64,000 nucleotides of DNA, from the NCBI RefSeq assembly GCF_963576615.1, contig NC_088711.1, positions 37,382,621 through 37,446,620 of the forward strand, written 5' to 3'. Position numbers and translations under genes: made by a program. The notes below the pieces were generated by a model, which did no database searches, was not told where the DNA came from, and saw only the letters and a program-made list of their open reading frames with translations. The first letter of the stretch is position 1; every line of letters begins with the position of its first letter. Below are positions 25,779-63,581 of this stretch, in pieces. Origin of the DNA: Watersipora subatra. Lineage: Eukaryota; Bryozoa; Gymnolaemata; Cheilostomatida; Watersiporidae.

Positions 25779-26985
25779 TTTGCTGTTATGAACGGTACAG
25801 AATTTGAAATCTTTAATTTAAAACTTTATTTCTGCAATTATCTATAAACCTCTAAACATAGTACTTGACCATCATACCTCTCCATCTTATTTCACTTATT
25901 TCATCTACTAACCTTGGTAGAATTAAACCTGCCATGTTTCTTTTTTATGGTTGAACTAATGAATTGCTCCTGCCTGCTTGGGATGAAACTCCTTGAATGC
26001 CAATTCAAGACTAAGTGAATACACCTAATACACAATTCATCATAGCTTCGGGCTATACTCATTGCACCCTCTATTAGAACCCAATAACAGCCACCCGCTA
26101 CACCTATCTAGGGAATATACGGAAATGCCAAGAGTTTAGTAAAAAATACAACTAAACATATATGACTAACATTAGCAGAAGCGCTCCTAGCTCTAGGCAA
26201 CCTTACCTTCCACTTGTCTTACTAGTCAATGTAATTGATAGGCAAGTTTAGTGAGTGAAAGTCGCTATTTCCTCTGAGGCGGGCGAGAGATACATGGTTA
26301 TACTAGAGAGCGTACTTACAAGCTGTCATGGAAATCAATACTGCTGCAAGGGGACAACTATTGTCTGTTATGTTAGTGTGCTAGACCAGCATAGCTTCTC
26401 AGCCACTCAATGGGATGCTGGTATTGATTGGCTTTCACGTTACAGAGTTGCCTATAGTTAAGTCCTTCCGGATTCATCAATAGACTCTGCAAACCCTGCT
26501 TGCTGCCGGATGATTACTTAACATTAAATATTGTTTGCTTGATTAAACGGAAAAGGTCTTGCCTCCACCTGACTCTGATTAGGTAGCAAATACTGTACGT
26601 TGAGGTACCATTAACCAATATATTTATCTATGAAACTGTTCAATACCAGCTGTTTAGTTACTGATAACACTAGTCACAATAATATAGCTACTTACAAGCT
26701 CTCATGGTTCAGGTATAACATTCCAAAATATCCACTCTATAAGTACCTCAGTCTGAGACCAGCGTCATTGAGGAAAAGCCTACCATTTTGTCTTGAACAA
26801 CATAATTGGGTAAGTGGTACTTGGTAGTCAGAGATGCAGAACATACTCTCAAACGTTATTCAACATCTTATCAGCTGTTTAGATTTAATTCTGACAACTC
26901 TGAAACAGAAAACTAATGTAATTTATCATCTGAATTCCCTATTTGTGAAAAATATATGAAATTATGGAGATGGCAGTTTAAAAAA
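25779..26985. other. Upstream of complexin
   Basis: Should hold the complexin promoter and 5' UTR; no element could be assigned. Confidence 0.35.
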
Positions 26986-30230: not shown

Positions 30231-30403
30231 TTAGGCAATGAGGAATGAATAGTTGGATGACGATAACTGAGTCATGTTTCCTTCGCTGTCCGTATCAAAC
30301 TTGTAAATGTATTCCTTGACATCCTCTACAGTGTTGGCTATGCCTGCCTCATAAGTGACAGTTCGCGGGCTTCTTGAGAAATTATTGCTAAAGGCGATGT
30401 GAT
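30231..30403 (-). CDS. Large gene exon 29, end of GOLD and stop
   Basis: Acceptor [29 protein letters not shown] completes the G.Y.L.F.N.......V strand pair; the tail [17 protein letters not shown] resembles the serine-rich end of SEC14L1. TAA at 30231-30233. Confidence 0.86.
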
Positions 30404-33400
30404 CTGCAAAAAAAAGAAAAGTTAACATCAGAGTTATCTGCAAAGCTTCTGATAACTTCTAAACACTTATTTCATAAAAACTTGGGCAGGTATACTGGTA
30501 TTTGGCAATTTGGTTGTTTCTAGAAGCTTCTTTAAATAGAAAAGTTGGAGATTTTCTGATATCCGTCGACCATAAAACAGAATACTTGTGTTCACTCCAA
30601 TCAAACTACGCAGTACATATTCTAAGCACACTCAAAGTGATGACCAGATGGGTAAAGGAAGAGAAGAGAGTGGCTCACATTTTCCCGGTTCAACTGCATC
30701 AATATGATTGCTGTAATAGTGGTCGACTTGAGCGACCAGAACTAGGCTCGTCTTTCTAAGGATATCAGTAACTCCTGGTGGAAGGTAGTATATCTCAAAA
30801 TCTATTGGCCCATCTGGCTCAAACTCGACACTAACAAAAGGAATTAGAGAGTTATGTCATGGCTACAAGAAATATTCAGTCGCATGCCACTCATACTAAT
30901 AATAACTCTAGTCTAACATTTATTTTTGTGCAGCACAATTATTACAGCGCAATATAATAGAATGCAACATTTCACTACAATTTGACTGTTTGTCGGCCAG
31001 TGCGAATTCAAGGTTGCACAATTAGAAAAAATATTACATTATCCGGGAATTGAACCAATGGCATTCAGCTTAGCAGCCAGGCAGACTACCATCTGAACAT
31101 ACTTATTCTTTTGTATTCATTTGCTGATAACATGTAACATTAATATTAGCATTAGTCATTGAGTTAATCATTGAAACAACAAAGATATAGTTCTTTAATA
31201 TTTCTCTCACAAAGATATGTAACAAACTAAGCCAGTTAGTGACTAAGTAATAATTACTTACATATTGATTCTAGCGATCAATAAGATTAACATATAATTA
31301 ATGTTCGTTTATGGTAGTCAAACTTGTAACTGTTCGTGCTGAGTGCCAATAATGCAGGTAAAGTCAACACATTTAGAGAGTTTGAGATGGTACTTAACTT
31401 GAAATAAGCTCATGCGCTTTGGCTAGCAAACAATCTATATGTAGCAAGTTGAACTTTGAAGCAATTTTACTATAATAAGAGCAATGTTTGTCTGTCCGTC
31501 TGTCTGAAGCCACGCTGACAGTGTTAGAAAAAAATTGCCTCTCATGAGAATTGAACTCTGTTTTGCTATGTTTACAAAGTTCAATTATGTGCGCACTAAC
31601 CACTACAGTGCTGGCCGCTTTTCTGTATCATGAATTAAGCATACACACACACGGATGACTCATGATGATCTCCCACAGCATGCAAAACTGACAAGCATAT
31701 TAGCCTTTATAACAAAAGCTCACAGCTTTTGCCCCTAGAAACTCATTAAAGCCTGTCATAAACCCTTATATATACCACCACAACCTAGTAATTTATAGCA
31801 GCTCTTTAAGATGCCTCTGAAAACTCAGTGGAAACTAGGAAAACATAGATACATAGCTGTAAAAATACTTCACAGACTTACAACAGCAGTGCTCCGAGAG
31901 ATCTCTCTGGCTGCTGGTAGATCAGTATTCTTGGCATGGTCTCTACAGAGAGGGACGTCCAATGAGCTCTCGACTTGTTCTGAACCTTTTGCTGGAATAG
32001 TGCATTATTACATTAAGATAGTCTTAACACTATCAAAGCTACTCTAAGATTACATTCCATTAGGCTTGCTACACTTACTGGTAAATAATAAGTTGCTGGA
32101 ATCTTGGCAGGAGAGTTTAGGTGGTGGGCAATATTGTAAGAACCGCCCAGAGTTGGTGGTAGGAAGTCTTCTGACACGAGGGGAGAAATTACATCCTTCC
32201 AAGAATCGCCTTCAATGAACTCACAGCGCATTGCATTATGCTCTGTGAAAAGGGATATAGCCAGCTTCTCTGTCACTTCATCGTAGTGAGCCCCTAAAAT
32301 AAGATAAATAATATAGTAATAGATTTAATTAGCATTTTACCGCCTTTAAAGACAGCGCGGAAAACAGCGATATAATAGCTCATGAAGGCCAATTGCTAAA
32401 AGACACGTCGAAATCAATGATTAGATCGTGTGATATAACTTTTATGAGATCTGTCCATGCAGGAATTCTTGTATCACATTAAAAATATGTAAAAACCGAA
32501 GTCTGCCAAATTTAGATCAGCGTTTATTCTCACACCAACTCATGCTCATAATTTTAATTCTTTTAAGAAATTATTTTTAAAATACTGCTAACAAATCATA
32601 AACTACAAAATAACTTTTTAGGTGCTACTTGATGAAGGCCATTACTCACCTTGAACAAGAAAGACAGTGGAAAATAGCCCAGGGTAGTTTCTACACATCA
32701 ATGTTATCATAGAGTGAAACCAAGACAAGCCTTCTACATGGGATGACTGCATCGGCAGGTGAAACTTTGTTGCATCTACTATGAGCATAGAACTGTACCC
32801 ATTCTGTAATCATACGGTTTTATAGCAGTTGTTTAAACTGTAGCCACTCGGCAAGCAAAGATTTATAGCAGCAATATAGGCTTTTACTAATAACTGCTCA
32901 AAGAATGTGGTGAAAGAGCTACAGTGCCATAGTTCAACAAAAAAGATGAACAAAAATATGTAAAATGCCTAACCCAGAAATGGTACAAAAAATGAAATGA
33001 CATATTGCTGAGAATTGATGAAGACATTTGGAGCTATTTTCCTATTAAAAGACAACTCTCAAAAATGTGATAAAAAAGTATTATTTAAATTCACTTCTTT
33101 AATATAGCCATAAAATGATATAACAAGACAGCAATAACAATAATAAATAAAATAAATACGTTCTATTATATTTCAGTATTACCAGCAATAACAACTAATC
33201 GATAGGTAGATGTAAAGACAGCAATGACAACTACGACAAGGTACATGTATACCTTGTGGAAAACTTGATAAAATGATTTATTGGCGAACATCTCGCCCTA
33301 GCAAAATGCTCCTTTCAACAGCTTTGCTCTAGAAATCTCTAATTAATTGATATAAATTTAGGCATCTTTGACCCATCAGCCTGTTTTCATTCTTTCTAAT

Positions 33401-36400
33401 ATTTGGATGGGAATTAGCATTGGGCTCTCACTAACCTGACAGCTTTTATTCAGCACCATTATAAATGTTGATAAATGCAGCCAAAAGTATGACTCACCCG
33501 CTAGTTTGATATTTGACACGCCCCAACAGGTGGAACCACCAGCATAAAATTTTGGACTCACCTGTTTGCACTCATGTTCAACTTTCTCTAATAGATAGAT
33601 GGCATACAGCATAAACTCTGATTTGCTGCAGCACAGTGCCAAACCTTCCCAGTCTATGCTACCCAGCTGACACAGGTAAAGAGGATTTCCTGTGCTATCT
33701 GTTCCGGAACGCTCTATAATTGTTCCGTACTGTAACAGAGATGGCATAGCTGTTTAACCAGCTAAACAAGATAACTTTGAAGTGTCTAAAATTTCAATCT
33801 GACCAAGCACAGTGCTCTTCACACTTTAAGCAGCTGCAATATTGACAATCACATTACCACTTAAAGATACTGACAGATGCTCACAACTGCTTACATAAAG
33901 TCACAGGACTTTACAGGTATTTACAGACACTTACAGACACTTACAGACAAAAAATTTACAGACACTTACAGATATTTTCAAAAACTCACAGACACTTACA
34001 GATATTCACAACAACTCACAGACACTTACAAATATTCACAAAAACTCACAGACACATATATTCACAAAAACTCACAGACACTTACAAATATTCACAAAAA
34101 ACTCGCAGACACTTACAAATATTCACAAAAACTCACAGACACTTACAGATATTCACAACAACTCACAGACACTTACAAATATTCACAAAAACTCACAGAC
34201 ACTTACAAACATTCACAAAAACTCACAGACACTTACAAATATTCACAAAAATTCACAGACACTCACAGATATTCGCAAAAACCCACAAACTGTCAAAGGC
34301 CCATACAGACACTCAAGAGTACTAATAGACACCTACAAATGCTCACAGATGTTATGTGCATGTAAGCAGTTTTAGATCACATATAGATTATAAGCTGTTT
34401 TGGTATTTAAGGTTTTAGAGGGACCAACATGAATAGACAAATCTACGGTACTCTGTTTTAACTATCAAAACAATAACCGTAACCATGATATCCTACCATG
34501 AAACTTTAACAAGTGTAATCAGGCACAACTCTGTCATAAGAGGTTTATTCAGCTCATTAAATTTATTAAATTAAAATTAATAAATTAAGTACTTTAAATT
34601 TATTTAAGTACTTAATTAATTAATTAAATTATTTACTCAATTTATTAAATTGAGGACAACAATCCGAATAGATTCGCATAAGAAATGACAGAGGTGACAC
34701 TCACCAAATTGCATCAGTCTTCATAGATCAATACTTGAACAGTTTAAAAAATTAGAACAAAACAGATCAATATTGCAGGACCATTGTAAGTTTGTAAGTA
34801 AATAGGTAAGTAACTAAGTGATTAACTTACTACTGAACAAAGTAATGAAGTAGCGTGACTAACAGTTACTTATTCTGACATGATGAGATACCATGTTAAT
34901 CACAGACCAATGAGGTATAATAGTCTTACCGTAAACAGGGGCTCCTTAGCAGCATAGCGGTAGAAGATTCGCCATAGTTTTAAAGAGTCTTTCAAAATGA
35001 CCGAGTTGTGAAGATGAAAGACAGCCAACTCAGCAGCCGGATACGCTAAAACAACAGAAATATAATAATAGACAACAGTGAGACAGGATTCTGTAAGTTT
35101 TTGTTTAACAGCTAATGTCAACGCGTGACGTTCAATTTGAAATTGGCATCATAGTTTCCACGTAACTACTTAATAACAGGCTTTGATTTAGGGCCGAGAG
35201 ACTAGATCAAAAGTCAAGCTGGAAAACAGAGTTGCTTACCTTTGATCCACCTGCTGAGGTACGAAGAGTTCCACTCTGGCCTGACAATACTGCCGCAGGC
35301 AGATATGAGTGCTTTTGTTTGGGCCAGTTCCGTTGGATTAATCACTTTACCATGTACAACACTGTCTTTTCTTACCTCCTTTGAAGACAACCTCATTTGC
35401 CTTGACTTCTTTCTCGTCTTACAAATAGGAAAGAGATAAACCTTGCCGCTAGTGGGTAGATATACATAACTATATATAAACTATATAACAGGCGAGTAGA
35501 TATGCATACGGTAACTATATATACACTATATAAAGGGTGGGTAGATATACATACAGTAACTATATAAACACTATATAACAGATGGGTTACTGCGCACACA
35601 TATTGCACTTTGAAATATCAAGACCACATTAAACAAGTAACTATTATTAGCTTGATACAGCTATTAATTGTTTCTATGGTGCGGCTTTTAAAGTTTTAAC
35701 GAAAAAAAAAAACGAAAAACCTTGGAGTTGGACCACGAGAGAATTAATTGTTTTTGATGTAAACGATTCATTATTAGTACGATTTTGTGGACACTTTTCT
35801 ACTGATCCTTTGCTATTATGGGTTTGTGAAGATCAAAGAATGTCAAGGTGGGGATCAAATGGAGGTGGCGTTCAATCAAAGGGTTGCCCCCTATTTTTAA
35901 CCCATCTCCCATAGTGGCAGTGAAACAGAGGTGTCATTCGAATAGAGCGGCGGTCAATTAGAGGTTTTATGGTATGTCGAGTAGCTAAAAATGAGAAATG
36001 GGGGGCAAAGTAAGAACGGTAAGAGAAATGAAAGTTTGGAAAATACAAAAACAACAAAAAGAGGCAGCAATGCATGACAGCAACCAGTGACCAGCTAGTT
36101 TTGCACTGGTTGCTCAAACCATAGAATTGTTTCACAAATTCAGTTCTCCATATTTCGACATATAACTTCCAAACTAGCAAAGCACTGGTTGCTGACAAAT
36201 AGATATAAATGTGATAATCCAATAAAAACAATTAAAAGTGCAGATAGTGCTATACCGTATATTCAGTGACAATCTCATGCATGCCAGCTCCAAGCTCTTT
36301 GTAGTAGGTTGTTGTCTCATTGATGGTCAGCAGAACCTATAGAATTCAACTACTTGAATGTTCACTTACAAAATAATTTGTTATGAAAACTGTAAAGACA

Positions 36401-39400: not shown

Positions 39401-42400
39401 CTCACATGACAGTTCATAAGATATCATGAAACATGAATGCACAGAATATGCAAACATCTCAGTCTCTCACATGACAGTTCATAAGATAGCATGAAACATG
39501 AACGCACAGAATATGCAAACAAAACCTGAACATTTAGATAACAACTTCATTTTGAACTTGTGAAAAGTTGGAGGTTAGGGAACAATCAGAGTTATCCTCA
39601 CCTGATTTTGCTGTAAGATATCTACCGCACACAACTGTCAACAGGTAAAATGTGTCCTTTGATTTGGACTCCATAGCTGAGGCATTCACCAAGTCTCTCA
39701 GCAGAGCGACTTTTCCATAATTCTCTTCTAACAAATGCTGTAAAAATAAGAAAAGATAATCTTCAATTCTTGCAATAATTATGGTAAAAACCAGCCTATT
39801 ACGTAATTTCGCTGGCCAATGACCTTGTTATAGCTGAAAATCATGTTTTTGAAATAGCTGTATATTAGCAATGTTCCCACAAACGTAAATGTCAAGAGAT
39901 TAGTTAATAGGTAGGAAACTTAGCAGTTACAATACATTCCTACAGCATACATTATCTCCCACTAACGGAAACAAGTATGCATCAACAACCATTGTTTACA
40001 TGCTGCATACGTGTACAATATTCTTACCATTTGATTGTGGAGTTGGGAATTACTTACTCAGTCCATAGCAACACTATAGTAGGAACACAACTCCTATTCA
40101 GTCAATCCATTTATATAGAAGTAGCTTTATAGTTATATTCATTCCATGTCTAGCAACTAAGGAAGCAACATCATTTAATTGTATACTAATAGTTGATCGA
40201 TCAACATGTATATTGTATCATAATATCTTACGTCTAGACTGTTAATCTAACCCCAACCCAGTCTTCAGAGGGTTGGTTGGAGGTGTACGTATATATGAGG
40301 CATCGTTACATGAACTATAGCATTGGATTAGCCTTGTTGTAGAATCGTAACCTGACCATCACTAGACTACCTCCCACCTATCGGCATTGACACTCACATA
40401 GACGGTGAATAACACTATAGCACCAGCTAACCAGAGCCCTCTGCCCTAACGACAAACACAACTGAAGTGAAGACTATCCATATATAAGGAGATTTGGACT
40501 CATACTAATACTGAAGGTAGATAGCTCATTTACAACAAAATAAGCTACAACAACCTTGCTAGCCTGTGCGCTTTATTTGGCTGAAGCTGTCAGCTTAAGC
40601 CTTAATAAAACCATATAATAGATTAAAATAATAGATTAAAATCAGTGAAGCTACAAAAAAAAACTAACAAATAGAGTTTGATCTTCGATGTAAGAGTGGA
40701 GTGAAAAATAGGTTTTAACCGATTGAACTGATGCAGTAGCTATTATTACAGTAGCTGTTATCTCTACAGCTCAAGGTGTAAGACTTGAATTAGAACTAAA
40801 TCAGAGCAGAACCTTACAGCCAGATTTAATCAGCTGATACAACATCTGATTTTGAACGCATGAATTTGTGACCAATAACGCTTAACGCATCGTCCAAAAT
40901 TTGTGAGAAACTATCACTTCTCACCTAGAATAAATAGTATCACTTCTCACCTAAAATAAATACTATCACTTCTCACCTAGAATAAATACTATCACTTCTC
41001 ACCTAGAATAAATAGTATCACTTCTCACCTAGAATAAATACTATCACTTCTCACCTAGAATAAATACTATCACTTCTCACCTAGAATAAATACTATCACT
41101 TCTCACCTAGAATAAATACTATCACTTCTCACCTAGAATAAATACTATCACTTCTCACCTAGAATAAATACTATCACTTCTCACCTAGAATAAATACTAT
41201 CACTTCTCACCTAGAATAAATACTATCACTTCTCACCTAGAATAAATACTATCATTTCTCACCTAGAATAAATAGTATCACTTCTCACCTAAAATAAATA
41301 CTATCACTTCTCACCTAGAATAAATACTATCACTTCTCACCTAGAATAAATACTATCACTTCTCACCTAGAATAAATACTATCACTTCTCACCTAGAATA
41401 AATACTATCACTTCTCACCTAGAATAAATACTATCATTTCTCACCTAGAATAAATAGTATCACTTCTCACCTAAAATAAATACTATCACTTCTCGCCTAG
41501 AATAAACATCATTTAAATAGTATTGTCGAAACTACAACTCACGTATAATTTGTCAAAAGGTATTTATGGAAGAAAAGATGTACAAAAGTAAGTAAATAAA
41601 TAGCATCTAAAACTAATAAAAATGACATTTCATGTAAAGTTTTGCTATAAAAAATATTATTTTGGACAAACCTTTTTGGATGAAACACAAAAAAATTCTA
41701 AAATTTTGGAAAGCTATCTAAGATTTGGAAAGCTATCTAAGATTTGGAAAGCTATCTAAGAGTTTGGAAAGCTATCTAAGAGTTTGGAAAGCATTGTGCA
41801 TGAAATGAATAAACTATAAAGAACTAACTGATAATGAAAAATTTATATTTTTTTAAACTTGGTTTTCAGCCATTGTTATCTTTATTAAAATAATCTGACT
41901 AAAACAGGCTGATTATAAGAAATCACTTTTAAAGCGATCATCAATTTACTTTATGTTATTCTGAAAAACTAAATAGTTTAGGTGAAACCTGATGCTTTGA
42001 AGTTTCAGATGCCATATAAGATTAACCAAAAATAAGTTCATGCTTTTAATACTGACATACCACAGTATGTAAAACCATATTTGTAATTAATTGCAACTCC
42101 TACTATGGCAATGTTTTTCTCTCTAGTACTGTATATACCAGATAGCGCAAACAGTAGTGATGTTATACTACTAATTAGCACTGTATATACAAGATAGGGC
42201 ACACAGTAGTGTTGTTATACTACTTATTACCACTGTATATATCAGATAGAGCAGACAGTAATGATGTTATACTACTTATTAGCACCGTATATACAAGGTA
42301 GGGCAGACAGTAGTGATGTTATACTACTTATTACCACTGTATATATCAGATAGAGCAGACAGTAGTACTGTTATACTACTTATTAGCACTGTATATATCA

Positions 42401-45400
42401 GATAGAGCAGACAGTAGTGTTATTATACTACTTATTATCACTGTATATGTCAGATAGAGCAGACAGTAGTACTGTTATACTACTTATTAGCACTGTATAC
42501 ATCAGATAGAGCAGACAGTAGTGATGTTATACTACTTATTATCACTGTATATATCAGATAGAGCAGACAGTAGTGATGTTATACTACTTATTATCACTGT
42601 ATATATCAGATAGGGCAGACAGTAGTGTTGTTATACTACTTATTATCACTGTATATATCAGATAGAGCAGACAGTAGTGATGTTATACTACTTATTATCA
42701 CTGTATATATCAGATAGAACAGACAATAGTGCTGTTATACTACTTATAAGCACTGTATATATCAGATAGAGCGGACAGTAGTACTGTTATACTACTTATT
42801 AGCACTGTATATACAAGATAGGGCAGACAGTAGTGTTGTTATACTACTTATTATCACTGTATATATCAGATAGAGCAGACAGTAGTGATGTTATACTACT
42901 TATTATCACTGTATATATCAGATAGAACAGACAATAGTGCTGTTATACTACTTATAAGCACTGTATATATCAGATAGAGCGGACAGTAGTACTGTTATAC
43001 TACTTATTAGCACTGTATATACAAGATAGGGCAGACAGTAGTGTTGTTATACTACTTGATAGCACTGTATATATCAGATAGAGCAGACAGTAGTGATGTT
43101 ATACTACTTATTATCACTGTATATATCAGATAGAGCAGACAAAAGTGCTGTTATACTACTTATTAGCACTGTATATATCAGATAGAGCAGACAGTAGTGA
43201 TGTTATACTACTTATTATCACTGTATATATCAGATAGAGCAGACAGTAGTGATGTTATACTACTTATTATCACTGTATATATCAGATAGAGCAGACAGTA
43301 GTGCTGTTATACTACTTATTAGCACTGTATATATCAGATAGAGCAGACAGTAGTGTTGTTATACTACTTATTATCACTGTATACATCAGATAGAGCAGAC
43401 AGTAGTGTTGTTATACTACTTATTAGCACTGTATATATCAGATAGAGCAGACAGTAGTGTTGTTATACTACTTATTATCACTGTATATATCAGATAGAGC
43501 AGACAGTAGTACTGTTATACTACTTATTAGCACTGTATATATCAGATAGAGCAGACAGTAGTACTGTTATACTACTTATTATCACTGTATACATCAGATA
43601 GGGCAGACAGTAGTGTTGTTATACTACTTATTATCACTGTATACATCAGATAGGGCAGACAGTAGTGTTGTTATACTACTTATTAGCACTGTATATATCA
43701 GATAGAGCAGACAGTAGTGATGTTATACTACTTATTATCACTGTATACATCAGATAGAGCAGACAGTAGTGTTGTTACACTACTTATTAGCACTGTATAT
43801 ATCAGATAGAGCAGACAGTAGTACTGTTATACTACTTATTATCACTGTATATATCAGATAGAGCAGACAAAAGTGCTGTTATACTACTTATTAGCACTGT
43901 ATATATCAGATAGAGCAGACAGTAGTGTTGTTATACTACTTATTATCACTGTATATATCAGATAGAGCAGACAGTAGTACTGTTATACTACTTATTAGCA
44001 CTGTATATATCAGATAGAGCAGACAGTAGTACTGTTATACTACTTATTATCACTGTATACATCAGATAGGGCAGACAGTAGTGTTGTTATACTACTTGAT
44101 AGCACTGTATATATCAGATAGAGCAGACAGTAGTGCTGTTATACTACTTATTATCACTGTATACATCAGATAGAGCAGACAGTAGTGTTGTTATACTACT
44201 TATTATCACTGTATATATCAGATAGAGCAGACAGTAGTACTGTTATACTACTTATTAGCACTGTATATATCAGGTAGGGCAGACAGTAGTACTATTATAC
44301 TACTTGATAGCACTGTATATATCAGATAGAGCAGACAGTAGTACTGTTATACTACTTATTAGCACTGTATATATCAGGTAGGGCAGACAGTAGTACTATT
44401 ATACTACTTGATAGCACTGTATATATCAGATAGAGCAGACAGTAGTACTGTTATACTACTTGATAGCACTGATACTAACATATCGTTTAAATGACAGACA
44501 ATACATTGCTTAAATTACTTTGTCACCACCTTTCTAAATTGACTGTCGACCAGGTTAGTCACTGCTGACAGTGCTGCCTTTTGAGCACCATCTATATCTG
44601 GAAATCCAGAGTTCTCAAATTTTGTAATTATTGGCATAATAGCTTGAATATTCCCTGTAGCATTAAGGGTGGCTGTGGCACTCCTCAACTCTTCTTTCAT
44701 TGCATTATACTCTCCCACTACAATATATTATATCTATAAATGACCACTTGAGTCTACAGAATTCTAGGTGCTGTAGTCTTGCAGAATGCAAGCAGCAAAA
44801 GAATACTCCCATTTGTATCTTTAATATCAAATTTAAAATTTAGATTAAATACCCAAATTTAAACAGGCTGTTAGCAAACTTTAAAACAACAGTTTTTTCT
44901 ACAAACACAGCTTCAGGGATAAAAAAGGAATGAGGTTTTTCAACATTTTTACTTTCAATTTAATTGATTTTAAGTTTAAAAATGTTTATATTATAACTCA
45001 TCAAACCATCACAAAAAAAGTTACACAAGATTCAGAAAAGTACATGGCAACAAAAACTAACAACTTTATTTTTAGAGATATTAATGAAGGAAGAGCAGCT
45101 TTTGTAAATTACAAAAGGTAATATAAATAAATATAGAGCATACTAACTTCTACTTGGGTACCTAAAACCAAAGTTATTATTTGCTCTTCAGAGCATTCAC
45201 TAATCAAAATACTTGAAGGTAAACCAAAATGTTCGACTAAGGGTTATGCAATGACAAAAATCTTTAGATCTACTCAGAAAGCTGTCAAGTGGTGTGACAA
45301 GGAGTTCCTAATCAGGAAGCTAATAACCAAGAAGTCAATGACCCAAAAGTTAATAACCAGAAAATTGATAACCAGAAAGTTAATAACCAGAAAGTTAATA

Positions 45401-54400: not shown

Positions 54401-57400
54401 TTTGAAATAATTGTGGAGATCACTAGACCATCAGAGTAGTAGTATTAAATGACAACTAGGTTCTTTAGTAGCATATAGTATATCAGTGTAACCTATATAT
54501 AACCTATTAGTAACTTCATATCAAGCACCTTGAGGAGTTGTTTAGTGAGAACAGAACTGAGCTGTGCAGTCGCCTGTCTTAGTAATGAATTATTATCAAC
54601 ACTCTCAGATGGCATTATATCCTTGTACTGAGCCAATGCATCTGCCAGCTCTTTATAATTCTGCAATAGATATGCTTCATTTAACTTTAAACCGTTGTTG
54701 TCTTTTCTTAGGGAAGGCAACTCCTAACAAAACTGAATAACACAACCTTATAAAGCTTGAGTCAAAAACAAATCCATGAAATCTTGAAGGCTTTCCAGCC
54801 TAGAGAAAAACAAGGCCATGGCTAGAGCATAACTTGATTGTTATTGTAAATAACAAATTGAAATTGTTTTCCATTTATTTTCAATCTATTCAATTTATTT
54901 CAAATTGCAAATTATCTACAATTGAAAATTCTCAATTTTCAAGTTTCCATAAATATTCAAATGGTTCATACATGGTAAATGGTTCATACATGGTTCATAC
55001 ATCAGAGGTTGGTCAATAAACATGCTGCAGTTTGTAGAATAAGAAGCAACTAAAAATGATTATTGGTAATTGTTGTATTTTTTCTGTACTTGCTGATTCA
55101 CCGTCGAGTACTACATGATTTTTGGTAAGCTCTCAGCATTCAAAAGTGCAACAATGTAAACATTATTTTTACCATGGTCATGGAATAGATAAAGTTTCAC
55201 AAAACGATCATTAACGCTCAAAACATAAAAACTGTTAACAACCCAACCTGAGCATAGTTTCGCTTTGCAAAAACCTCTATTTTTATATCACAACTTATCG
55301 TTAGCAACCACCAGTCGGGCTAGACAAATTGCAGCTACAAACTTTTACTAATTTTAGGTCCATAGACTTTGGTTAATTTTTATTCGATAATAGTAGTACT
55401 CAGAATAATTATTCATATTTTGTCGGTAACAATAATGCCGTAAAATAATAGCGTTGATATATCGTCCGACTCAGAAATACTCAGTCTTTTTGAAAATGGC
55501 CAAAAAAGTCTTCGTTCTCATTCTGCGGTTCAGAAATAATGACAAATTATATAGGGATCATCATAATATATCTTAGGTTTGATCAAATACGTAATTATGT
55601 CCTGGTAAAGAAACTAACTTGGTAGCAAAAGAGTTAATTAGGCACATACATGTACTAATTACTCATAACGATTTCTCATGGTGCGCGGGACTGCCGAGTG
55701 TACTAGTACTAGTGTACGAGGTCTGATCCAAAAGTTCCCGGAATTGAGTTGTATACTCGTGCATATTTACACGATGGAAAAACCCATTGCAGGGTTGGCT
55801 GGGAAACACCTCTGGAGTGTTGTCACAAAATTTCAGGTTGCTATGACAATGCGTTCTCATGTGAGCTAACGATATGTCAAGGTCTGTCCTGTGCATCGGT
55901 ATTTTAAAAAGTTTTTTTATCATCATGTCTAATAAACAGGAACAGCGCATTTGCATTAAATTTTGCATTAAATTGTTTAAATTGTCAGTTAAAACTTTTT
56001 GAACAGTTCCAAAGATAAGTCCAGTCTCTCAAAATATCTCTAATGGTTAAACGTCGATCTGGCATGACTAGTGACCTCACACTGTCAATTTACGAGCAGG
56101 TTCTTGCCGACGCTGGTCTGCCAGACCTCGCGTCATCTTCAGTGCTGTCTCTAACTTCACAAAAACGTTTGTACCACTCAAAAATTTGTGTTCTTTATAG
56201 ACCAGCATCTTCAAAAGCAATAGTTAACATTTCAACTGTCTGAGTACTTGTTTTCCCTAATTTCACACAAAATTTAATGCAAACACGCTGTTCCGATTGA
56301 TTAGACATGACGATAAATTTGTTAAAAAAAATACCGAAGCACCGGACAGACCTTGACATATCGTTAGCTCACATGAGAACGCATTGTCATAGCAACCTGA
56401 AATTTTGTGACAACACTCCAGAGGTGTTTCCCAGCCAACCCTGCAATGGGTTTTTCCATCGTGTAAATATGCACGAGTATACAACTCAATTCCGGGAACT
56501 TTTGGATCAGACCTCGTATATATATATATATTTCAACAGCACAAGGTACGTGTGTATAAACATAATTTAAATTGATCGATGCGTCATCACATGACTGCAT
56601 CTTTGACATAGAATTGGCTAAAGAAAACAAGGTCATGCTGTCAAACATATACAAAAGGTGGTCATACGATGTAAATAATGATGCATAGATGCGTCATAAC
56701 ATGTCTGAATCTATGACATAGAATTGGCTAAAGAAAACAAGGTCATGCTGTCAAAAATATACAAAAGGTGGTCATACGATGTAAATAATCCGTTCTGAAA
56801 ATGTTTATGCCGTAGGGAGTTTACATCATGCAAACAGCAAAACATGTAAATTGCCTAATCCATTCCAAAATCGTAAAATTCAATCCAATTTAAAAATTAT
56901 AAACGAACATTAACTTTTGAATTTAATGACTGTATAGTAACTGGTATCATTGGTTTGTATCAACAACATTTCTCTTTTTTCTCATCGGTTTCACTGGTTT
57001 AGGTTTCATGAATACGATAATTTTACATTAAGTTAAATGCATGTTAATGTTTAATGTTAATTTGACCTTCAATGTTAATTTAACGCTATTTTGTTTCTTT
57101 CTTTTCTGCACAGCAAGATCTACACTACGAAGAAACAAACAGAAAAAGATCATAGATGTCTAAAACAAAAATATATCTTATCTTTACTACATTAGACAGC
57201 AGTGTCTGTCTGGCCGTCATCAAGACTGAATGTTATGATAAAAAATCGCGTTCAACGAAACTCCAACTCATGACTTTAAACCCGGTAGACCGATCCTTTA
57301 TCACATGAACTTGACATTAATTTTTTACGTCAAACGAAATGTATGTAAAAGAAGGTTTACATTATAAAGTGTTTATTTCATATCCTATTCTGTATTCCAG

Positions 57401-60400
57401 CAAGACTTTTTAAACACCAATAATTGAAGCACTTGAACAATGGATTATGGGTAAAAATATTTATCAACAGAAAAATTATAAATATAATACGATACGTACA
57501 TGACACTCCATAGCATCAATCAGATGTAACACAATGTTTGCTTTTTTGGCGAGAATTTTTTTGGCTTTCATCAATACAGAGTTGGGGTTATGCTCTCCTT
57601 CCTCTTTGAATATATTGTGCCTTGCCAACTCCTGCAAAATTTCATACGTATGCTATAAAATTTAAGACTATCCAAGGTTGAGATGACATGGGCCAGGGGT
57701 ATAAAACCGGTATTTGTGGCTTTTAGCTTATATAAAAGCTGAACTCCCACAAAATAACAAAAACTATAATTATACATTTTGAATCTAATAATACTAATTT
57801 CAAAGGGATATATATATACAGTATATAGCACGCCTAAATGTAATGCAAATGATATAGTTAGCTGCCATATTCTACTCTAAAAGTTCTAAAAATACAAACG
57901 GTTGTCTATAAAGAATGGAGGCATAGAGTCTCATAAGATATGAGTTGTCTATAAAGAATGGAGACATAGAGTCACATAAGATATGAGTTGTCTATAAAAA
58001 TGGAGACATAAAGTCACATAAGATATGAGTTGTCTATAAAGAATGGAGACATAGAGTCACACAAGATATGAGTTGTCTATAAAGAATGGAAACATAGAGT
58101 CACATAAGATATGAGTTATCTATAAAGAATGGAGACATAGAGTCACACAAGATATGAGTTGCCTATAAATAATGGAGACATAGAGTCACACAAAATATGA
58201 GTTGTCTATAAAGAATGGAGACATATGTAGAGTCACACACTACACAAACTGGTCATAATCAATGAAGGCAAGGTTTCTCTATAAGTTTTTTGTGACCTAA
58301 TTGTCAACAGGTTATCATATTGAAATGTAATTAGATTACATTTCAGAGTTTATGGAATCTGAGTCATGCTTAATTACAGAATTTATAACAAAATGATCGA
58401 AGGTTTCCATTGAAATAAACTTACTCCTACAGTAATTCCTATTCCTCTGATGTCATGATCTGCTATTTGCTTCTCCAGCAGCCTTTTCAAGTCATCCGCC
58501 AGTTTGTTCTACCAACAGATCAAGTAACAGCACTATCCCTGTTATACACATCAGATACAATCCACTATCCTTGTCATACACCTCAGATAAAATCAAACCC
58601 TAAAATTCATTACTAGAAATGTGTTGCCAAAGCATAGATACTTTCTTAAAAAAACATTCAGCTAACAGGCTCAATGGTGAATCTAAAACTATTGCTTGAA
58701 TCTCAACTTACTGACATTTTTAATTAAAATTTAATGTCGAATTGCCATTTATAATCTAGAATATACAAGCTGTAGCAATTGTCATGGATATTTAATATTA
58801 CTTTAGCATTGATTGTGAGGGCTTTGCTAGGAAATGATTTTTTAGCTGCTGAGGCCCTTTTATTGGTGTTCTCTGTTTTAGCCAAGACTTCAGACAGCAG
58901 GTAAGTATCATCATTGTAAATGGCTTCAAGGAGATTGTTCTTCAAGGAAGCCTGTGAAGCTGTAATATAAATAAATGCGAGGCTAGCAAGTATAATGAAC
59001 TATTACCATACACTGTACTTTTGGTACGCCTTCATGATAGCTAGTGTCACCACACCAGTAAGTTAATCAATTTAATTATGCTTCACAAACACAGCATACT
59101 ACTAGGTGCAGAAGACAGAAAAGCGATGACAGCCGGTTGAGGTGGCAGCTAGTTCTTGTTTCCTGAAGTTAGACAAACATTTCAGCGTTTAGTGATAGGT
59201 AAAGTTCAACTCAAATTTGTAGCTACAACACTGACCAATAGTGTTCACTGATTTGCATTACCACATGTTACTGACCAATAGCATCCAGCTTTCCAAATGA
59301 GAGGAGTTTCTTTATAGCCAGGTTTTCCTCCCTGTGAAGTTTGGCCAGCCAATAAAATCTGGTCTTCCAAAAGTAGTAGCCAATTACATGAGCAAAGAGT
59401 ACTAGTAGTGTACCCTACAAACAGTGAGTCATACAAAGCGAATAAACTTGCAGAGGTAATCTACATCGCTCAAAACTGGGTTCTAGGATGCGCATTCGAT
59501 GCTATGTGAAAGCAACATTGACTTCTCTACGATACTAGTGTCGTAAAGAACATAATGGAGTTTACGTTTGCATAGAAGGCCGTGTGAGCTGAGACAAGAC
59601 AATAACCCTATATCGGGGGTCATATTTGCTCTAATTATGTTAGGACACAATAGATTCTTACTTCAGCTGAAATATCAACTTTTGCGGATCAAGTTGTTAC
59701 TGTACTTAAATGTATTGAAACCTGGATAGATTTTTTATTAACACTGGGAGAGGTTAATGATGTCTAAGGAAAGATCGATATACACGTAGCAAAGAATGCA
59801 TGCAGAAATGGCTATAGATTACTGAGTTAAACACCCTCATGTCTATACAGACTGTAGGTCCTCACTAGACGACTTCAACTGTGTGATGTGGAAAAGACTG
59901 TCACGCTGTCGGTGACAATAAAGACTGGAATAACACCTGAAAAATTCCAGTATTTAGCCACAAATAACTAACCACAATAACTGTATAAAACTTTATATTC
60001 TCTGTTTGTCAAGTATCTTAAAGGTTGACTTGCAATAAAACTCGCATTACAGTTATTTGGTATCAAAAGATTCACCATGTCTTACTCTGTTGTGTGGTAG
60101 GTCCCAAATATGTGGAAATGTGATTACAAGCTCTCAAAAGCTCAAAAACGAAAAGCAGCCGTAGATTGGAATCTCTTTATTTCAATGACGTAGTCATGAA
60201 ATTTGGTTATTGTCTTGTCACGTGATGTTCTCACGTGAATTGAAAGGCCAATAAAAAGCTCGATATAAAACTTATCGTAGCACTAGTTTATGACAAACAC
60301 TTCGGGTTTTACCGAAAACCCCGTATCAAATATAGATGCTCGCTACTTTACAGTTTTGTTTCGGTTTGGTCTAATCGGCAAGTCGTAATCTGATCATGTG

Positions 60401-63400: not shown

Positions 63401-63581
63401 TGTTAAGCGTCGGCAACATACGTTTGGTTGATCAAGTTAGCTTTAATGATCTCTTCTTCAGTAAATCTTCGTATTTTGCTGTAGCGTGTTCCTCCTCCTA
63501 CTACCTTGAGTGTGTACTTTCCTCGAAAGGATTTGCCAGACCCCATAGTTGAATCGAATATATCAAAATGGGGATAAAAGG
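30231..63581 (-). CDS. Large helical-repeat / CRAL-TRIO / GOLD protein, 29 exons, 5' end outside window
   Basis: Twenty-nine exons join with matching splice phases into one open frame of 1,542 residues plus stop (numbered here from the first full codon in the window). Residues 1-150 form an unrecognised beta-rich, cysteine-containing region with one N-Q-T sequon. About 147-166 ([20 protein letters not shown]) is a likely membrane helix. About 170-1120 is almost all alpha-helical, with recurring units such as [34 protein letters not shown] and [17 protein letters not shown]. About 1220-1390 is a CRAL-TRIO/Sec14 domain ([56 protein letters not shown]). About 1420-1510 is a GOLD domain ([30 protein letters not shown]). 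The C-terminal third resembles SEC14L1-type proteins, which bind lipids or retinoid-like ligands and couple them to membrane traffic. The helical repeats replace their PRELI region. Orientation and function of the whole are inference. The gene lies upstream of complexin on the same strand. Confidence 0.85.
30679..30830 (-). CDS. Large gene exon 28, GOLD domain
   Basis: Acceptor TTGTTAG, donor [31 protein letters not shown] is the W/F-x-F..g.DI.F.I signature of GOLD; ends DAVEPGK. Confidence 0.86.
30985..31130 (-). mobile_element. SINE-like fragment
   Basis: CCGGGAATTGAACCAATGGC and ATTCAGCTTAGCAGCC match the box B side of the SINE family. In intron 27-28 of the large gene. Confidence 0.45.
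31462..31705 (-). mobile_element. tRNA-derived SINE, copy 3
   Basis: TTTACTATAATAAGAGCAAT and TGTCTGTCTGAAGCCACGCT match copy 2, with box B as GAGTTCAATTCTC and box A-like TAGTGGTTAGTGCG on the minus strand. Confidence 0.65.
31882..31991 (-). CDS. Large gene exon 27, start of GOLD
   Basis: Acceptor CTATTCCAG, donor TGTT|GTAAGT, phase 0 to 2. It fills both the phase gap and the missing first strands of [24 protein letters not shown] then SLGALL. Recognised by that fit, not by a long ORF. Confidence 0.78.
32079..32293 (-). CDS. Large gene exon 26, end of CRAL-TRIO
   Basis: Acceptor ATTTTAG, donor [44 protein letters not shown] carries the LP..LGG signature closing the Sec14 fold. Confidence 0.88.
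32650..32803 (-). CDS. Large gene exon 25, CRAL-TRIO core
   Basis: Acceptor ATTACAG, donor [30 protein letters not shown] holds the Sec14 V-D strand; [15 protein letters not shown] is the NYPE-like motif and strand. Confidence 0.88.
33562..33729 (-). CDS. Large gene exon 24, CRAL-TRIO core
   Basis: Acceptor GTTACAG, donor CAG|GTGAGT, phase 0. [19 protein letters not shown] and [18 protein letters not shown] match the D..G.P.Y...LG.ID strand and following helix of SEC14L1-type domains. Confidence 0.88.
33900..34345. repeat. 30-bp minisatellite with two donor-like words per unit
   Basis: About 14 copies of ACTTACAAATATTCACAAAA plus ACTCACAGAC. In gene sense the unit gives TTTGTAAGTGT and CTGTGAGTTTT. 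In intron 23-24. The long plus-strand ORF here is an artefact of the 30-bp period. Confidence 0.9.
34550..34650. repeat. AT-rich palindromic run
   Basis: Alternating AATTTATTAAATT and TTAATTAATTAATT words; self-complementary low-complexity DNA. Confidence 0.6.
34930..35045 (-). CDS. Large gene exon 23, CRAL-TRIO N-terminal helices
   Basis: Acceptor TGTTTTAG, donor [29 protein letters not shown] and [19 protein letters not shown] sit where the CRAL-TRIO N-terminal helical subdomain is expected. Confidence 0.82.
35240..35417 (-). CDS. Large gene exon 22
   Basis: Acceptor TTTGTAAG (purine-interrupted), donor AAAG|GTAAGC, phase 0 to 1. A basic stretch [17 protein letters not shown] links the helices to [17 protein letters not shown] and [10 protein letters not shown], which lead into the Sec14 region. 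Confidence 0.78.
35453..35590. repeat. Tandem repeat, about 45 bp, 3 copies
   Basis: Unit GGTAGATATACATA..ACTATATA. In intron 21-22 of the large gene, just past exon 22's acceptor side. Confidence 0.75.
35648..35973. mobile_element. Family C, one-ended fragment
   Basis: Matches the right third of 2809-4203 (CTATTATGGGTTTGTGAAGA, GTGGCGTTCAATC) and ends AATTAGAGGTTTTATGG. Confidence 0.65.
36256..36336 (-). CDS. Large gene exon 21
   Basis: Acceptor CTATAG, donor ACG|GTATAG, phase 0. 27 residues, [20 protein letters not shown] then EIVTEYT. Confidence 0.74.
36520..36723 (-). CDS. Large gene exon 20
   Basis: Acceptor TTTACAG, donor TGG|GTAAGT, phase 0. 68 residues: [40 protein letters not shown] and a helix ending [10 protein letters not shown]. 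Confidence 0.84.
36998..37120 (-). CDS. Large gene exon 19, stalk-like segment
   Basis: Acceptor TTTGCAG, donor CAG|GTGCTT, phase 0. [20 protein letters not shown] and [17 protein letters not shown] resemble in pattern the dynein-stalk helix with its P..V..V...LLG motif; this is a weak, by-eye likeness. Confidence 0.8.
37525..38105. repeat. 11-bp minisatellite made of GTAAG words
   Basis: About 50 degenerate copies of AGAGCTTACAT. In gene sense every unit is ATGTAAGCTCT. It starts some 30 bases after the donor of exon 18 (GAT|GTAAGT). Confidence 0.92.
38137..38411 (-). CDS. Large gene exon 18, coiled helices
   Basis: Acceptor TTCATAG, donor GAT|GTAAGT. 91 codons of long amphipathic helices: [40 protein letters not shown] and [21 protein letters not shown] dense GTAAG-bearing array follows the donor. 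Confidence 0.84.
38452..38758. repeat. 28-bp minisatellite near exon 18 acceptor
   Basis: About 11 copies of TTTTTTTAATCAGATAGCC plus AGTAGGTGG, ending about 40 bases from the acceptor. Confidence 0.9.
39196..39522. repeat. 67-bp minisatellite
   Basis: Five copies with ATCTCAGTCTCTCACATGAC and CATAAGATATCATGAAACAT. Gene-sense unit includes CATGTGAGAG. Some 80 bases past the donor of exon 17. Confidence 0.9.
39602..39737 (-). CDS. Large gene exon 17
   Basis: Acceptor TTTTACAG, donor TCAG|GTGAGG, phase 0 to 1. Encodes [20 protein letters not shown] and [18 protein letters not shown]. Confidence 0.8.
39738..40911 (-). other. Part of intron 16-17
   Basis: No repeat, exon or element recognised. 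Confidence 0.4.
40912..41512. repeat. 26-bp minisatellite, about 23 copies
   Basis: Unit CTATCACTTCTCACCTAGAA plus TAAATA, very homogeneous. Gene sense: CTAGGTGAGAAGTG, a near-perfect AG|GTGAGA donor repeated about 23 times. Large intron 16-17. Confidence 0.95.
41700..41792. repeat. 19-20 bp tandem repeat
   Basis: Five copies of AAGATTTGGAAAGCTATCT. Confidence 0.85.
42125..44472. repeat. 52-bp satellite array, about 45 copies
   Basis: Unit CACTGTATATATCAGATAGA then GCAGACAGTAGTG.TGTTATA and CTACTTATTAG. Variants alternate at a few positions (TTAG/TTAT, GATG/GTTG/ACTG) and a four-unit block is duplicated 208 bases apart (about 42715 and 42925). Starts about 57 bases past the donor of exon 16. 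Confidence 0.97.
44530..44717 (-). CDS. Large gene exon 16
   Basis: Acceptor ATTGTAG, donor AAG|GTGGTG. 62 codons: [38 protein letters not shown] and [16 protein letters not shown]. The 52-bp satellite starts about 50 bases past the donor. Confidence 0.82.
45317..45430. repeat. 15-bp tandem repeat beside MITE A copy 2
   Basis: About 7.5 copies of AGAAAGTTAATAACC. Decayed units appear on the other side of the MITE (46225-46315), suggesting insertion into the array at a TTAA. Confidence 0.85.
45427..46224. mobile_element. Palindromic MITE, family A copy 2
   Basis: Starts TAAACCATAACTGCC and ends CAGTTATGGTTTAA; matches 46-840 along its length. In intron 15-16 of the large gene. Confidence 0.85.
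46494..46615 (-). CDS. Large gene exon 15
   Basis: Acceptor TTTCCATAG chosen over a nearer TTGCAG because only it keeps phase; donor AACA|GTGAGT. Encodes [20 protein letters not shown] and [15 protein letters not shown]. Confidence 0.78.
46914..47074 (-). CDS. Large gene exon 14
   Basis: Acceptor ACTTCAG, donor AAAAG|GTATAA, phase 2 out. Encodes [37 protein letters not shown] and an acidic helix ending KDLQALK. Confidence 0.83.
47075..47954 (-). other. Part of intron 13-14
   Basis: A short run of AGTACTAGTAGT-type triplets near 47340-47430; otherwise nothing. Confidence 0.4.
47965..48140. repeat. 41-bp tandem repeat, 4 copies
   Basis: Unit CTTTATCGACTTCACACACA plus TACATGTACAGTGACAGTAAA. 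Confidence 0.9.
48325..48935. repeat. 24-bp minisatellite with 48-bp dimer period
   Basis: About 25 copies of GGTAGTTGTGTAAAAGACCA, alternating CCAACCA and CCACACA between copies. Being a multiple of 3 it yields long open frames in several frames of both strands; none is taken as a gene. Confidence 0.95.
49044..49285 (-). CDS. Large gene exon 13, helical repeats
   Basis: Acceptor TTTCTTAG, donor AAG|GTAAGC. 80 codons with [36 protein letters not shown] and [20 protein letters not shown], the best-formed repeat unit. Confidence 0.88.
49625..49762. repeat. 62-bp direct repeat, about 2.3 copies
   Basis: Copies share GATTACAAGTGGCA.ATGAAG and TAATGATAGAAATA. Confidence 0.8.
49891..50027. repeat. 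Imperfect hairpin in intron 12-13
   Basis: The left arm (ACGAGTTTGTCGTTCTT.AACTT, TGTAGCAAAGGTT) pairs with the right arm (AACCTTTGCTACAAGTT, GACAAGCTCGCAA) over about 50 bases with mismatches; loop about 35-40 bases. It may be a short MITE or a microRNA-like precursor. Confidence 0.7.
50166..50295 (-). CDS. Large gene exon 12
   Basis: Acceptor TTAACGCAG, donor CGAA|GTGAGT. Encodes [20 protein letters not shown] and [19 protein letters not shown]. Repeats of the intron end abut its acceptor. Confidence 0.82.
50296..50490. repeat. About 45-60 bp repeat abutting exon 12 acceptor
   Basis: Four copies of GTTAACATGAGATA..GGGATGAACTACCTT. The first copy runs into the acceptor (gene sense ATCTCATGTTAACGCAG|ATG), so the intron end itself is what is repeated. 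Confidence 0.85.
50892..51077 (-). CDS. Large gene exon 11, helical repeats
   Basis: Acceptor TTGTTAG, donor AAA|GTAGGT, phase 0. 62 residues with [38 protein letters not shown] and [13 protein letters not shown]. Confidence 0.86.
51285..51890. repeat. 41-bp minisatellite carrying GTAAGT/GTATGT
   Basis: About 15 copies of CTTACAGCTGATAGTGTAAT plus GAATATAAAATATAAACTGAA. Gene sense: CTATCAGCTGTAAGTTCAG; variants read CTGTATGTTC. Confidence 0.93.
52015..52259 (-). CDS. Large gene exon 10, helical repeats
   Basis: Acceptor GTTTCAG, donor ACG|GTAAGT, phase 1 to 0. 81 codons with [34 protein letters not shown] and [14 protein letters not shown]: two repeat units. Confidence 0.88.
52260..53562 (-). 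other. Intron 9-10 of the large gene
   Basis: AT-rich with an ACGGGTATACTATATAAGTA-type imperfect repeat near 53035-53080; nothing else recognised. Confidence 0.4.
53563..53674 (-). CDS. Large gene exon 9, helical repeat
   Basis: Acceptor CTGACAG, donor TACG|GTAAGC. Encodes [20 protein letters not shown] and [17 protein letters not shown], a clear copy of the repeat core. Confidence 0.85.
54015..54245 (-). mobile_element. tRNA-derived SINE, copy 4
   Basis: TTTACTATAATAAGAGTTCAT, GAGGTTGGGATAAAAGATTG and GACATTTGGCTTGGCAG match copy 2; ends CTAGACAACCAGGCT. Confidence 0.7.
54250..54440 (-). mobile_element. tRNA-derived SINE, copy 5, next to copy 4
   Basis: CAACAAGAGCTGTGTCTATC, GGTTGG..AACAGATTGC and box B-like GGGCTCGCACTCGGG. 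It follows copy 4 directly, in the same orientation. Confidence 0.6.
54529..54723 (-). CDS. Large gene exon 8
   Basis: Acceptor TTTGTTAG, donor AAG|GTGCTT, phase 0. 65 residues: [38 protein letters not shown] and [17 protein letters not shown]. Confidence 0.8.
55717..56516. mobile_element. Folded-back mariner element
   Basis: TA target duplications flank 800 bp with inverted ends CGAGGTCTGATCCAAAAGTT that are identical for about 185 bp. A mariner transposase N-terminus is readable on the minus strand (56307 down to about 56000), and the first codons of a second copy are readable on the plus strand from 55926: both ends derive from the 5' end of a mariner. Confidence 0.88.
55990..56307 (-). 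pseudogene. Mariner transposase N-terminal fragment
   Basis: Starts [13 protein letters not shown] and [13 protein letters not shown], then after stops [17 protein letters not shown] and DRRLTIRDI, the helix-turn-helix part of mariner transposases. Two stops and loss of the whole catalytic region make it inactive. Confidence 0.85.
56575..56790. repeat. About 110-bp tandem duplication
   Basis: Two copies sharing GACATAGAATTGGCTAAAGA and GGTGGTCATACGATGTAAAT, just outside the mariner. Confidence 0.9.
57178..57325 (-). mobile_element. tRNA-derived SINE fragment, copy 6
   Basis: TGTCTGTCTGGCCGTCA, AAACTCCAACTCATGACTTT and CCCGGTAGACCGA align with the box region of copy 2, with mutations. Confidence 0.5.
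57500..57631 (-). CDS. Large gene exon 7
   Basis: Acceptor TTTTGCAG, donor CAT|GTACGT, phase 0. 44 residues with [20 protein letters not shown], the I/V..KA..L pattern of the repeat. Confidence 0.8.
57900..58240. repeat. 43-bp minisatellite, 8 copies
   Basis: Unit GAGTTGTCTATAAAGAATGG plus AGACATAGAGTCACATAAGATAT. In intron 6-7. Confidence 0.93.
58425..58508 (-). CDS. Large gene exon 6
   Basis: Acceptor TTGGTAG, donor GGA|GTAAGT, phase 0 both sides. 28 residues: [20 protein letters not shown] then RGIGITVG, helix plus turn. Confidence 0.78.
58802..58959 (-). CDS. Large gene exon 5
   Basis: Acceptor ATTACAG, donor AAA|GTAATA. Encodes [18 protein letters not shown] and a lysine-rich helix ending ALTINAK; start of the helical region. 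Confidence 0.78.
59276..59414 (-). CDS. Large gene exon 4, hydrophobic (membrane) segment
   Basis: Acceptor TTTGTAG, donor ATTG|GTCAGT (weak). Begins [16 protein letters not shown], a 16-residue apolar run extended by SVLA of the previous exon, followed by K-T-R-F-Y-W and a charged helix. Basic residues after the run suggest the following part is cytosolic. Confidence 0.78.
60018..60902. mobile_element. MITE family B copy 2
   Basis: TTAA flanks both tips: TTAAAGGTTGACTTGCAA and TTGCAAGTCAACCTTTAA. It aligns along its length with 15769-16705. In intron 3-4 of the large gene. Confidence 0.85.
61129..61225 (-). CDS. Large gene exon 3
   Basis: Acceptor GTTTTAG, donor GCG|GTAAGT, phase 2 to 0. 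Encodes [20 protein letters not shown] and [13 protein letters not shown]; it ends just before the hydrophobic segment. Confidence 0.8.
61758..61952 (-). CDS. Large gene exon 2
   Basis: Acceptor TTATCAG, donor AACAG|GTAAGC. Encodes [32 protein letters not shown] and [13 protein letters not shown]. Phase 2 in and out. Strand-like alternation suggests a beta domain; no family recognised. Confidence 0.8.
62410..63145. repeat. Compound CA/TG and ATGTATAC microsatellite
   Basis: ACACACGC-type runs (62410-62910) pass into ACATGTATATACATGTATAC (62915-63145). Almost every step alternates purine and pyrimidine. It fills the first visible intron of the large gene and generates many spurious ORFs. Confidence 0.95.
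63422..63581 (-). CDS. Large gene exon 1 in window (internal exon)
   Basis: Acceptor TTTTGTAG, phase 1 in; donor CAAAC|GTATGT, phase 2 out. Encodes [38 protein letters not shown] and a helix ending NLINQT. An internal ATG (MGSGKS) could be a start, but the frame is open upstream to the acceptor, so more exons probably lie to the right. Confidence 0.68.

Follow-up and report, generated by a model that had tools for sequence, protein, structure and literature searches.

Sperm swimming and fertility are controlled by the sperm calcium channel CatSper, whose auxiliary subunit CatSper gamma (CATSPERG) belongs to a family of type I membrane topology, while the SEC14L2/3/4 proteins, in which a CRAL-TRIO domain is followed by GOLD, are soluble. 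In the mouse, the CatSper units form zigzag rows that are linked intracellularly by a diagonal array, partly unidentified, whose end bulges are assigned to EFCAB9-CATSPERzeta, and for whose centre C2CD6 and TRIM69 have been put forward as possible components (PMC9205950). From another field, a paper on plants describes PATELLIN2, a SEC14-GOLD protein, as binding alpha-tocopherol as well as the intracellular region of the iron transporter IRT1, which shows that a SEC14-GOLD module is able to work on a transporter (PMC10152663). A search of the open-licence PMC full text retrieved no paper joining CATSPERG or "cation channel sperm" to CRAL-TRIO, and among the matches listed from the same collection on cytoplasmic tails of invertebrate CatSper none was evidently on such a layout; of the matches listed that combine at least two of CatSper, Sec14 and GOLD domain, one mentions CatSper, a methylome and transcriptome study of depression. 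The main text of PMC6660944, a comparative study of CatSper, has a single mention of gamma, in its background section, and a single one of CATSPERG, in its reference list. Within open-licence PMC papers, the statement of the initial annotation that no protein with the present layout had been described therefore stands.

The window analysed here is a stretch of 64,000 nt from Watersipora subatra (GCF_963576615.1, NC_088711.1:37,382,621-37,446,620, forward strand), and all coordinates below are window positions unless a contig is named. The extracellular domain and transmembrane (TM) segment of CatSper gamma, a series of helical repeats and a CRAL-TRIO domain lie in it on one unbroken, in-phase chain of exons. 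With a probability of roughly two in three, these parts belong to a single-copy CATSPERG gene with a cytosolic tail of ~1,350 residues, in which a helical arm with repeats is followed by a SEC14L-type CRAL-TRIO domain and an end that is tentatively GOLD-like (Table 1).

The gene model, obtained by an exon-chaining script combined with manual choice of borders, comprises 28 exons and 1,515 residues on the minus strand, running from 63581 to the stop at 30231-30233, with GT/AG borders and continuous phase across all 28 exons and with 27 introns of 87-4,792 bases. The initial annotation had reported 29 exons and 1,542 residues joined in phase; the unbroken chain is retained, and the count is revised. 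The script is a simple one, trained first on seed peptides and afterwards on its own splice sites, and some borders were picked by hand. Its best chain scored 500 bits on the minus strand versus 29 bits on the plus strand, a comparison biased toward the minus strand by scoring tables trained on the same exons, and at most 13 bits in eight first-order resampled sequences. This 500-bit chain had 29 exons, including 56208-56083 and an 11-nt exon that were both dropped later, and it lacked some of the hand-chosen exons. When each exon was scored with codon tables built from the 27 others, 22 of the 28 outscored at least 98% of equal-length open non-coding stretches; the borders had previously been picked with the use of codon scores, and selection bias is thus lessened in this test rather than eliminated. 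The six weaker exons are 61225-61129, 39737-39602, 37120-36998, 35045-34930, 33729-33562 and 32803-32650, among which 61225-61129 is independently supported by the CATSPERG_C match and 33729-33562 and 32803-32650 by the CRAL-TRIO match, the remaining three being placed only by splice sites and frame.

Several script proposals were set aside, namely the micro-exons 63749-63746, 55840-55810, 33833-33825 and 31734-31724, the alternative borders 61210, 46914, 46615, 44654, 33498 and 32054, and the frame-neutral exon 56208-56083 (126 nt), the last because of its overlap with mariner-transposase-like sequence. The choice fell on border 61225 because the length then equals that of mouse CATSPERG, border 33562 together with exon 32803-32650 because the CRAL-TRIO domain is thereby restored, and exon 31991-31882 with border 32079 over some later script choices because of the SEC14L-like spacing before GOLD. 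In the genome, all 25 matches to an earlier joined model of 1,360 residues at E<=10 fall in the window, as do all five to the repeat region alone, so that no paralogue was found that carries the tail alone or could decide between one gene and two.

Table 1. Features of the modelled CATSPERG-CRAL-TRIO locus, in protein order (window positions)
Feature	Exons	Strand	Basis or remark
CATSPERG C-terminal extracellular domain	63581-63422, 61952-61758, 61225-61129	-	Pfam and mouse CATSPERG match
Single TM segment and first ~30 putatively cytosolic residues	59414-59276	-	Entered in phase 0, left in phase 1
First helical stretch of the tail	58959-58802, 58508-58425, 57631-57500	-	Leave-one-out codon score and reading frames
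Repeat exons	54723-54529, 53674-53563, 52259-52015, 51077-50892, 50295-50166, 49285-49044, 47074-46906	-	Repeat profile, helical moment
Further amphipathic-helical arm	46607-46494, 44717-44530, 39737-39602, 38411-38137, 37120-36998, 36723-36520	-	Repeats not demonstrable
Linker and region before CRAL-TRIO	35417-35240, 35045-34930	-	Position of CRAL-TRIO N-terminal domain, judged by eye
CRAL-TRIO domain	33729-33562, 32803-32650, 32293-32079	-	PF00650 (35.3 bits), SEC14L4
GOLD-like end with stop (tentative)	31991-31882, 30830-30679, 30403-30231	-	Colinear SEC14L4 alignment, shuffle test

The N-terminal end of the modelled protein is assigned, by profile and homology, to the C-terminal extracellular domain of CatSper gamma. 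In the Pfam scan, CATSPERG_C scored 55.2 bits in the first joined protein and 72.5 bits, against a cut-off of 27.6, when border 61225 was used together with exons predicted beyond the right edge of the window. The PDB search matched mouse CATSPERG (7eeb_F, E=6.2e-17), with an alignment that enters the TM exon and extends to residue 1080. The Watersipora protein resembles the mouse chains 7eeb_F and 9ubw_F in its C-terminal extracellular domain and at the beginning of its TM segment, but differs beyond them, since the solved mouse chain of 1,145 residues ends 65 residues past the aligned part, whereas here the reading frame continues for another ~1,350 residues. The short cytosolic tail of mouse CATSPERG accordingly has no counterpart in the one-gene model, and tail length is not taken as defining the family. 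The genome of 784 Mb yielded three CATSPERG_C matches at E<=10, of which the one above the cut-off is the window locus, and CATSPERG appears to be single-copy. The gene start and the rest of the extracellular part lie outside the window, to the right, where candidate extracellular exons extend to ~100.7 kb in window numbering. For the N-terminal beta-propeller, a search with PF15064, exon by exon, gave no match at E<=10, the control genomes likewise giving none, and Pfam did not recognise the family in the upstream exons predicted right of the window.

The TM exon was picked from 129 phase-compatible candidates by splice score and hydrophobicity, and the chain selects the same exon. Its score ranks third among the 129, the first rank being occupied by the next exon's own frame and the second by a truncated form that shares its donor. 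Two other hydrophobic frames were rejected as the membrane segment: for that at 60.6 kb no exon both fits in phase and has a good end, and that before 58959 sits in an intron ahead of the acceptor. Basic residues follow the TM segment directly, and the tail would be cytosolic on the type I topology of the CATSPERG family. The initial annotation had placed a hydrophobic helix at this point and let the protein begin with it; a membrane segment is indeed present, but the protein does not start there, the helix being the TM segment of CatSper gamma. Likewise, what had been conceived as a membrane-anchored, long-reach lipid-transfer or tethering protein is, given the CATSPERG_C score and the mouse match, to be replaced by an auxiliary subunit of an ion channel whose tail carries CRAL-TRIO.

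CatSper beta is also present in the genome, with both of the two CATSPERB_C matches above cut-off (64.1 and 35.9 bits; contig C10:19850421-19858011), and no gamma-like coding extension was found in the ~19 kb that follow it. Used as a control, the CatSper beta locus gave a best chain over 20 kb of 68.7 or 31.7 bits depending on the setting, against 500 for gamma, and much of that control chain is, by eye, tandem-repeat sequence. CATSPERD had no match in the genome, and the control genomes likewise gave none.

Between the membrane segment and the CRAL-TRIO domain extend ~900 mostly helical residues. The three exons nearest the membrane segment on the tail side each outscore 99% of the non-coding stretches in the leave-one-out codon test. 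Eight helical repeats of ~50 residues, with the pattern KAE..LY..L...L..A, occupy residues 366-755 of the protein and are encoded by the seven repeat exons and the start of the next exon; in a leave-one-out profile, the scores of seven of the eight are each equalled in no more than 1 of 500 shuffles, and the last unit fails the test. The TM-proximal stretch fits the repeat profile weakly, its score being reached by 43 of 500 shuffles. The helical hydrophobic moment lies above that of all 200 shuffles for residues 362-756 and again for residues 756-1094, and is reached by 25 of 200 shuffles for residues 170-362. In the arm no Pfam family rose above its cut-off, and phmmer returned no PDB chain at E<=10 from a library that included the solved mouse CatSper entries. 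About eight repeat units are hence borne out of the ~950 residues of helical repeats originally proposed, and the remaining arm residues are not demonstrably repetitive.

In the linker region (34930-35417) no Pfam match was obtained. The CRAL-TRIO domain that follows exceeds the Pfam cut-off of 22.6 bits and covers profile positions 10-153 of 153, confirming the domain proposed in the initial annotation; exon 32803-32650 taken by itself lacks a codon signal, and its inclusion with border 33562 instead of 33498 raises the CRAL_TRIO score from 13.4 to 35.3 bits. The domain alone matched SEC14L4 (4tlg_A) at E=1.8e-8, and for the whole C-terminal part the best PDB match was again SEC14L4 (E=6.4e-11), colinear through CRAL-TRIO into GOLD; no NCBIfam match was found for this part. 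In comparison with SEC14L2/3/4, the order of CRAL-TRIO and a colinear, tentatively GOLD-like end is shared, whereas those chains measure ~400 residues and the module here would end a long arm on a channel subunit under the one-gene model, with GOLD much diverged. The evidence on GOLD is mixed. Aligned to the GOLD stretch of SEC14L4, the end scores 41, where shuffles average 23.3 +/- 3.9 and reach 41 in 5 of 2000 cases, and 32 other segments of the protein all stay at or below 30 in the same alignment; EMP24/GOLD stays at 13.5 bits, below the cut-off of 25.9, the GOLD part alone matched no SEC14L chain in the PDB, and GOLD_2 (PF13897) matched neither the protein at E<=10 nor the window. The C-terminal end is therefore termed GOLD-like, a weak assignment. 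The order of membrane segment, helical repeats, CRAL-TRIO and GOLD put forward by the initial annotation thus holds, with its GOLD element downgraded: the colinear alignment and the shuffles speak for it, and the Pfam results and the PDB search with GOLD alone against it.

Elsewhere in the genome, CRAL_TRIO gave eight matches and none in the window, where the domain is split over three exons. The matches at C7:414719-416085 (+) and C7:428523-430739 (-) look like an inverted gene pair ~12 kb apart. A GOLD_2 gene at C7:21813081-21818422 (+), with 108 and 77 bits, both above cut-off, is unrelated in place to the window.

As for the neighbourhood, a complexin gene (21386-25782, minus strand; Pfam Synaphin, 91.4 bits) is the next recognised gene on the strand past the CATSPERG stop, and a strong coding exon of 46.8 bits with W-D-rich repeats lies at 8844-9383 on the plus strand, the chain containing it having no Pfam match at E<=0.1. 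An intron of the modelled gene holds, at 55988-56693, a stretch loosely labelled mariner-transposase-like; of its three open pieces one scores 15.0 bits with HTH_48 (Mos1 transposase), short of the cut-off of 24.1, and the joined version 26.9 bits, and a nearly identical peptide is encoded on opposite strands at 55.7-55.9 and 56.3-56.5 kb. Minisatellites are plentiful in the window (42124-44471 and elsewhere), with 55 tandem-repeat rows, of which the largest, 45 copies of a 52-base unit, lies in an intron of the CATSPERG-CRAL-TRIO model. Rfam gave no match in the window. The usual telomere repeat of animals is TTAGGG; in its place, (CCCCAAA)n/(TTTGGGG)n arrays stand at 11 of the 22 ends of the 11 big contigs (46-79 Mb), at both ends of C3, C4 and C8 and at one end of C1, C7, C9, C10 and C11. 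Ten further ends show no array in the bases read, which for several heads were just 100, and C2 opens with N. Such a TTTGGGG telomere-like repeat is unusual for an animal, and among the literature matches listed none evidently dealt with it.

That one mRNA encodes the CatSper gamma part together with the whole tail is quite probable. The TM exon exits in phase 1, in which exon 58959-58802 is entered, and the intron between them, at 316 bases, falls inside the range of the gene. Exon 58959-58802 and exon 58508-58425, whose codon scores are each reached by 0.2% of the pool, contain no in-frame ATG, and a start must therefore sit upstream; the TM exon is the sole strongly coding upstream partner found for the former. 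The competing view is that of two neighbouring genes, in which CATSPERG would read on past the TM exon donor at 59276 (GTCAGTAA) to the stop at 59270-59268 and a helical-arm CRAL-TRIO-GOLD gene would begin ~230 bases on. That donor is the weakest of those modelled (3.3 bits, the next having 4.5), and left unspliced the TM exon would give a CATSPERG tail of ~30 residues, nearer to the mouse tail; the early end of the solved mouse chain, a poly-A-like ATTAAA at 59076 and an ATG at 59035 that could be spliced to 58959 point the same way. Nevertheless, a 3' end, a promoter and a start would have to be squeezed into those ~230 bases, whereas the first well-scoring exon of complexin comes ~4.5 kb past the stop at 30231 on the same strand, and the best start codon in the gap requires an intron of 54 bases, the shortest of the 27 modelled being 87. 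Splitting here also scores 20.6 bits below joining, and on balance two genes at this point are improbable. Less probable still is a later boundary, with CATSPERG and the helical tail in one gene and a separate SEC14L-like gene starting within exon 35417-35240: an in-frame Met is found there, at what by eye is the expected start of a SEC14L protein of ~410 residues, but the exon opens at a strong acceptor (10.2 bits), so that it is probably spliced to an upstream exon, and the split between repeats and CRAL-TRIO costs 22.2 bits, typical of joins inside domains. In this test, which used the chain with the two pieces dropped later, a gene boundary forced at each of the 27 introns cost 12.9-39.7 bits, including 14.8 and 26.0 bits inside CATSPERG_C and 17.8 and 24.3 bits inside CRAL-TRIO, and the key junctions fall in the same range; since the script favours joining at every intron, its join at the key junction counts as support and not as proof.

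Taking one gene with the whole tail as the preferred reading, the pocket of the CRAL-TRIO domain is predicted to hold a lipid, which we consider somewhat probable. The likeliest mechanism we can offer, tentative and drawn from the fold alone, is one in which each CatSper channel would carry a stiff intracellular arm ending in a lipid-binding head, the head might dock on the flagellar membrane, at its inner leaflet, or on the neighbouring channel, and CatSper spacing or gating might thereby respond to membrane lipid. The main alternative keeps the single gene and regards its tail as a purely structural tether, to the axoneme for instance, whose CRAL-TRIO fold has lost its lipid binding. The divergence of the domain from the nearest solved SEC14L protein would suit such a tether, as would the weak GOLD and the larger share of the tail taken up by the helical arm; the CRAL-TRIO domain is nonetheless nearly full length, and we regard the tether as less likely than not.

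The folds of EFCAB9-CATSPERzeta, C2CD6 and TRIM69 are not known to be related to the modules of the gamma tail. These mouse proteins are comparable to the tail as cytosolic components named for the CatSper intracellular array (PMC9205950), and differ from it in being separate proteins and not gamma fusions. Under the arm-and-head mechanism, the gamma arm could replace the role of such separate cytosolic proteins, with a lipid input in addition. PATELLIN2 on IRT1 offers a likeness of another kind, a SEC14-GOLD protein acting at the intracellular side of a membrane transporter (PMC10152663), and is distinguished as a non-covalent partner of another transporter in another kingdom. It is conceivable, if doubtful, that in the animal lineage concerned the array coupling CatSper neighbours has been built into gamma, where a covalent SEC14-type lipid-exchange head would read the membrane lipid. 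If the one-gene reading is true, CatSper gamma would bear a built-in lipid-binding head, and the fusion of a CatSper subunit with a lipid-binding module would suggest what to seek in other species, either a partner or a lipid signal, raising the testable question of whether a SEC14L-type protein, or its ligand, acts on CatSper.
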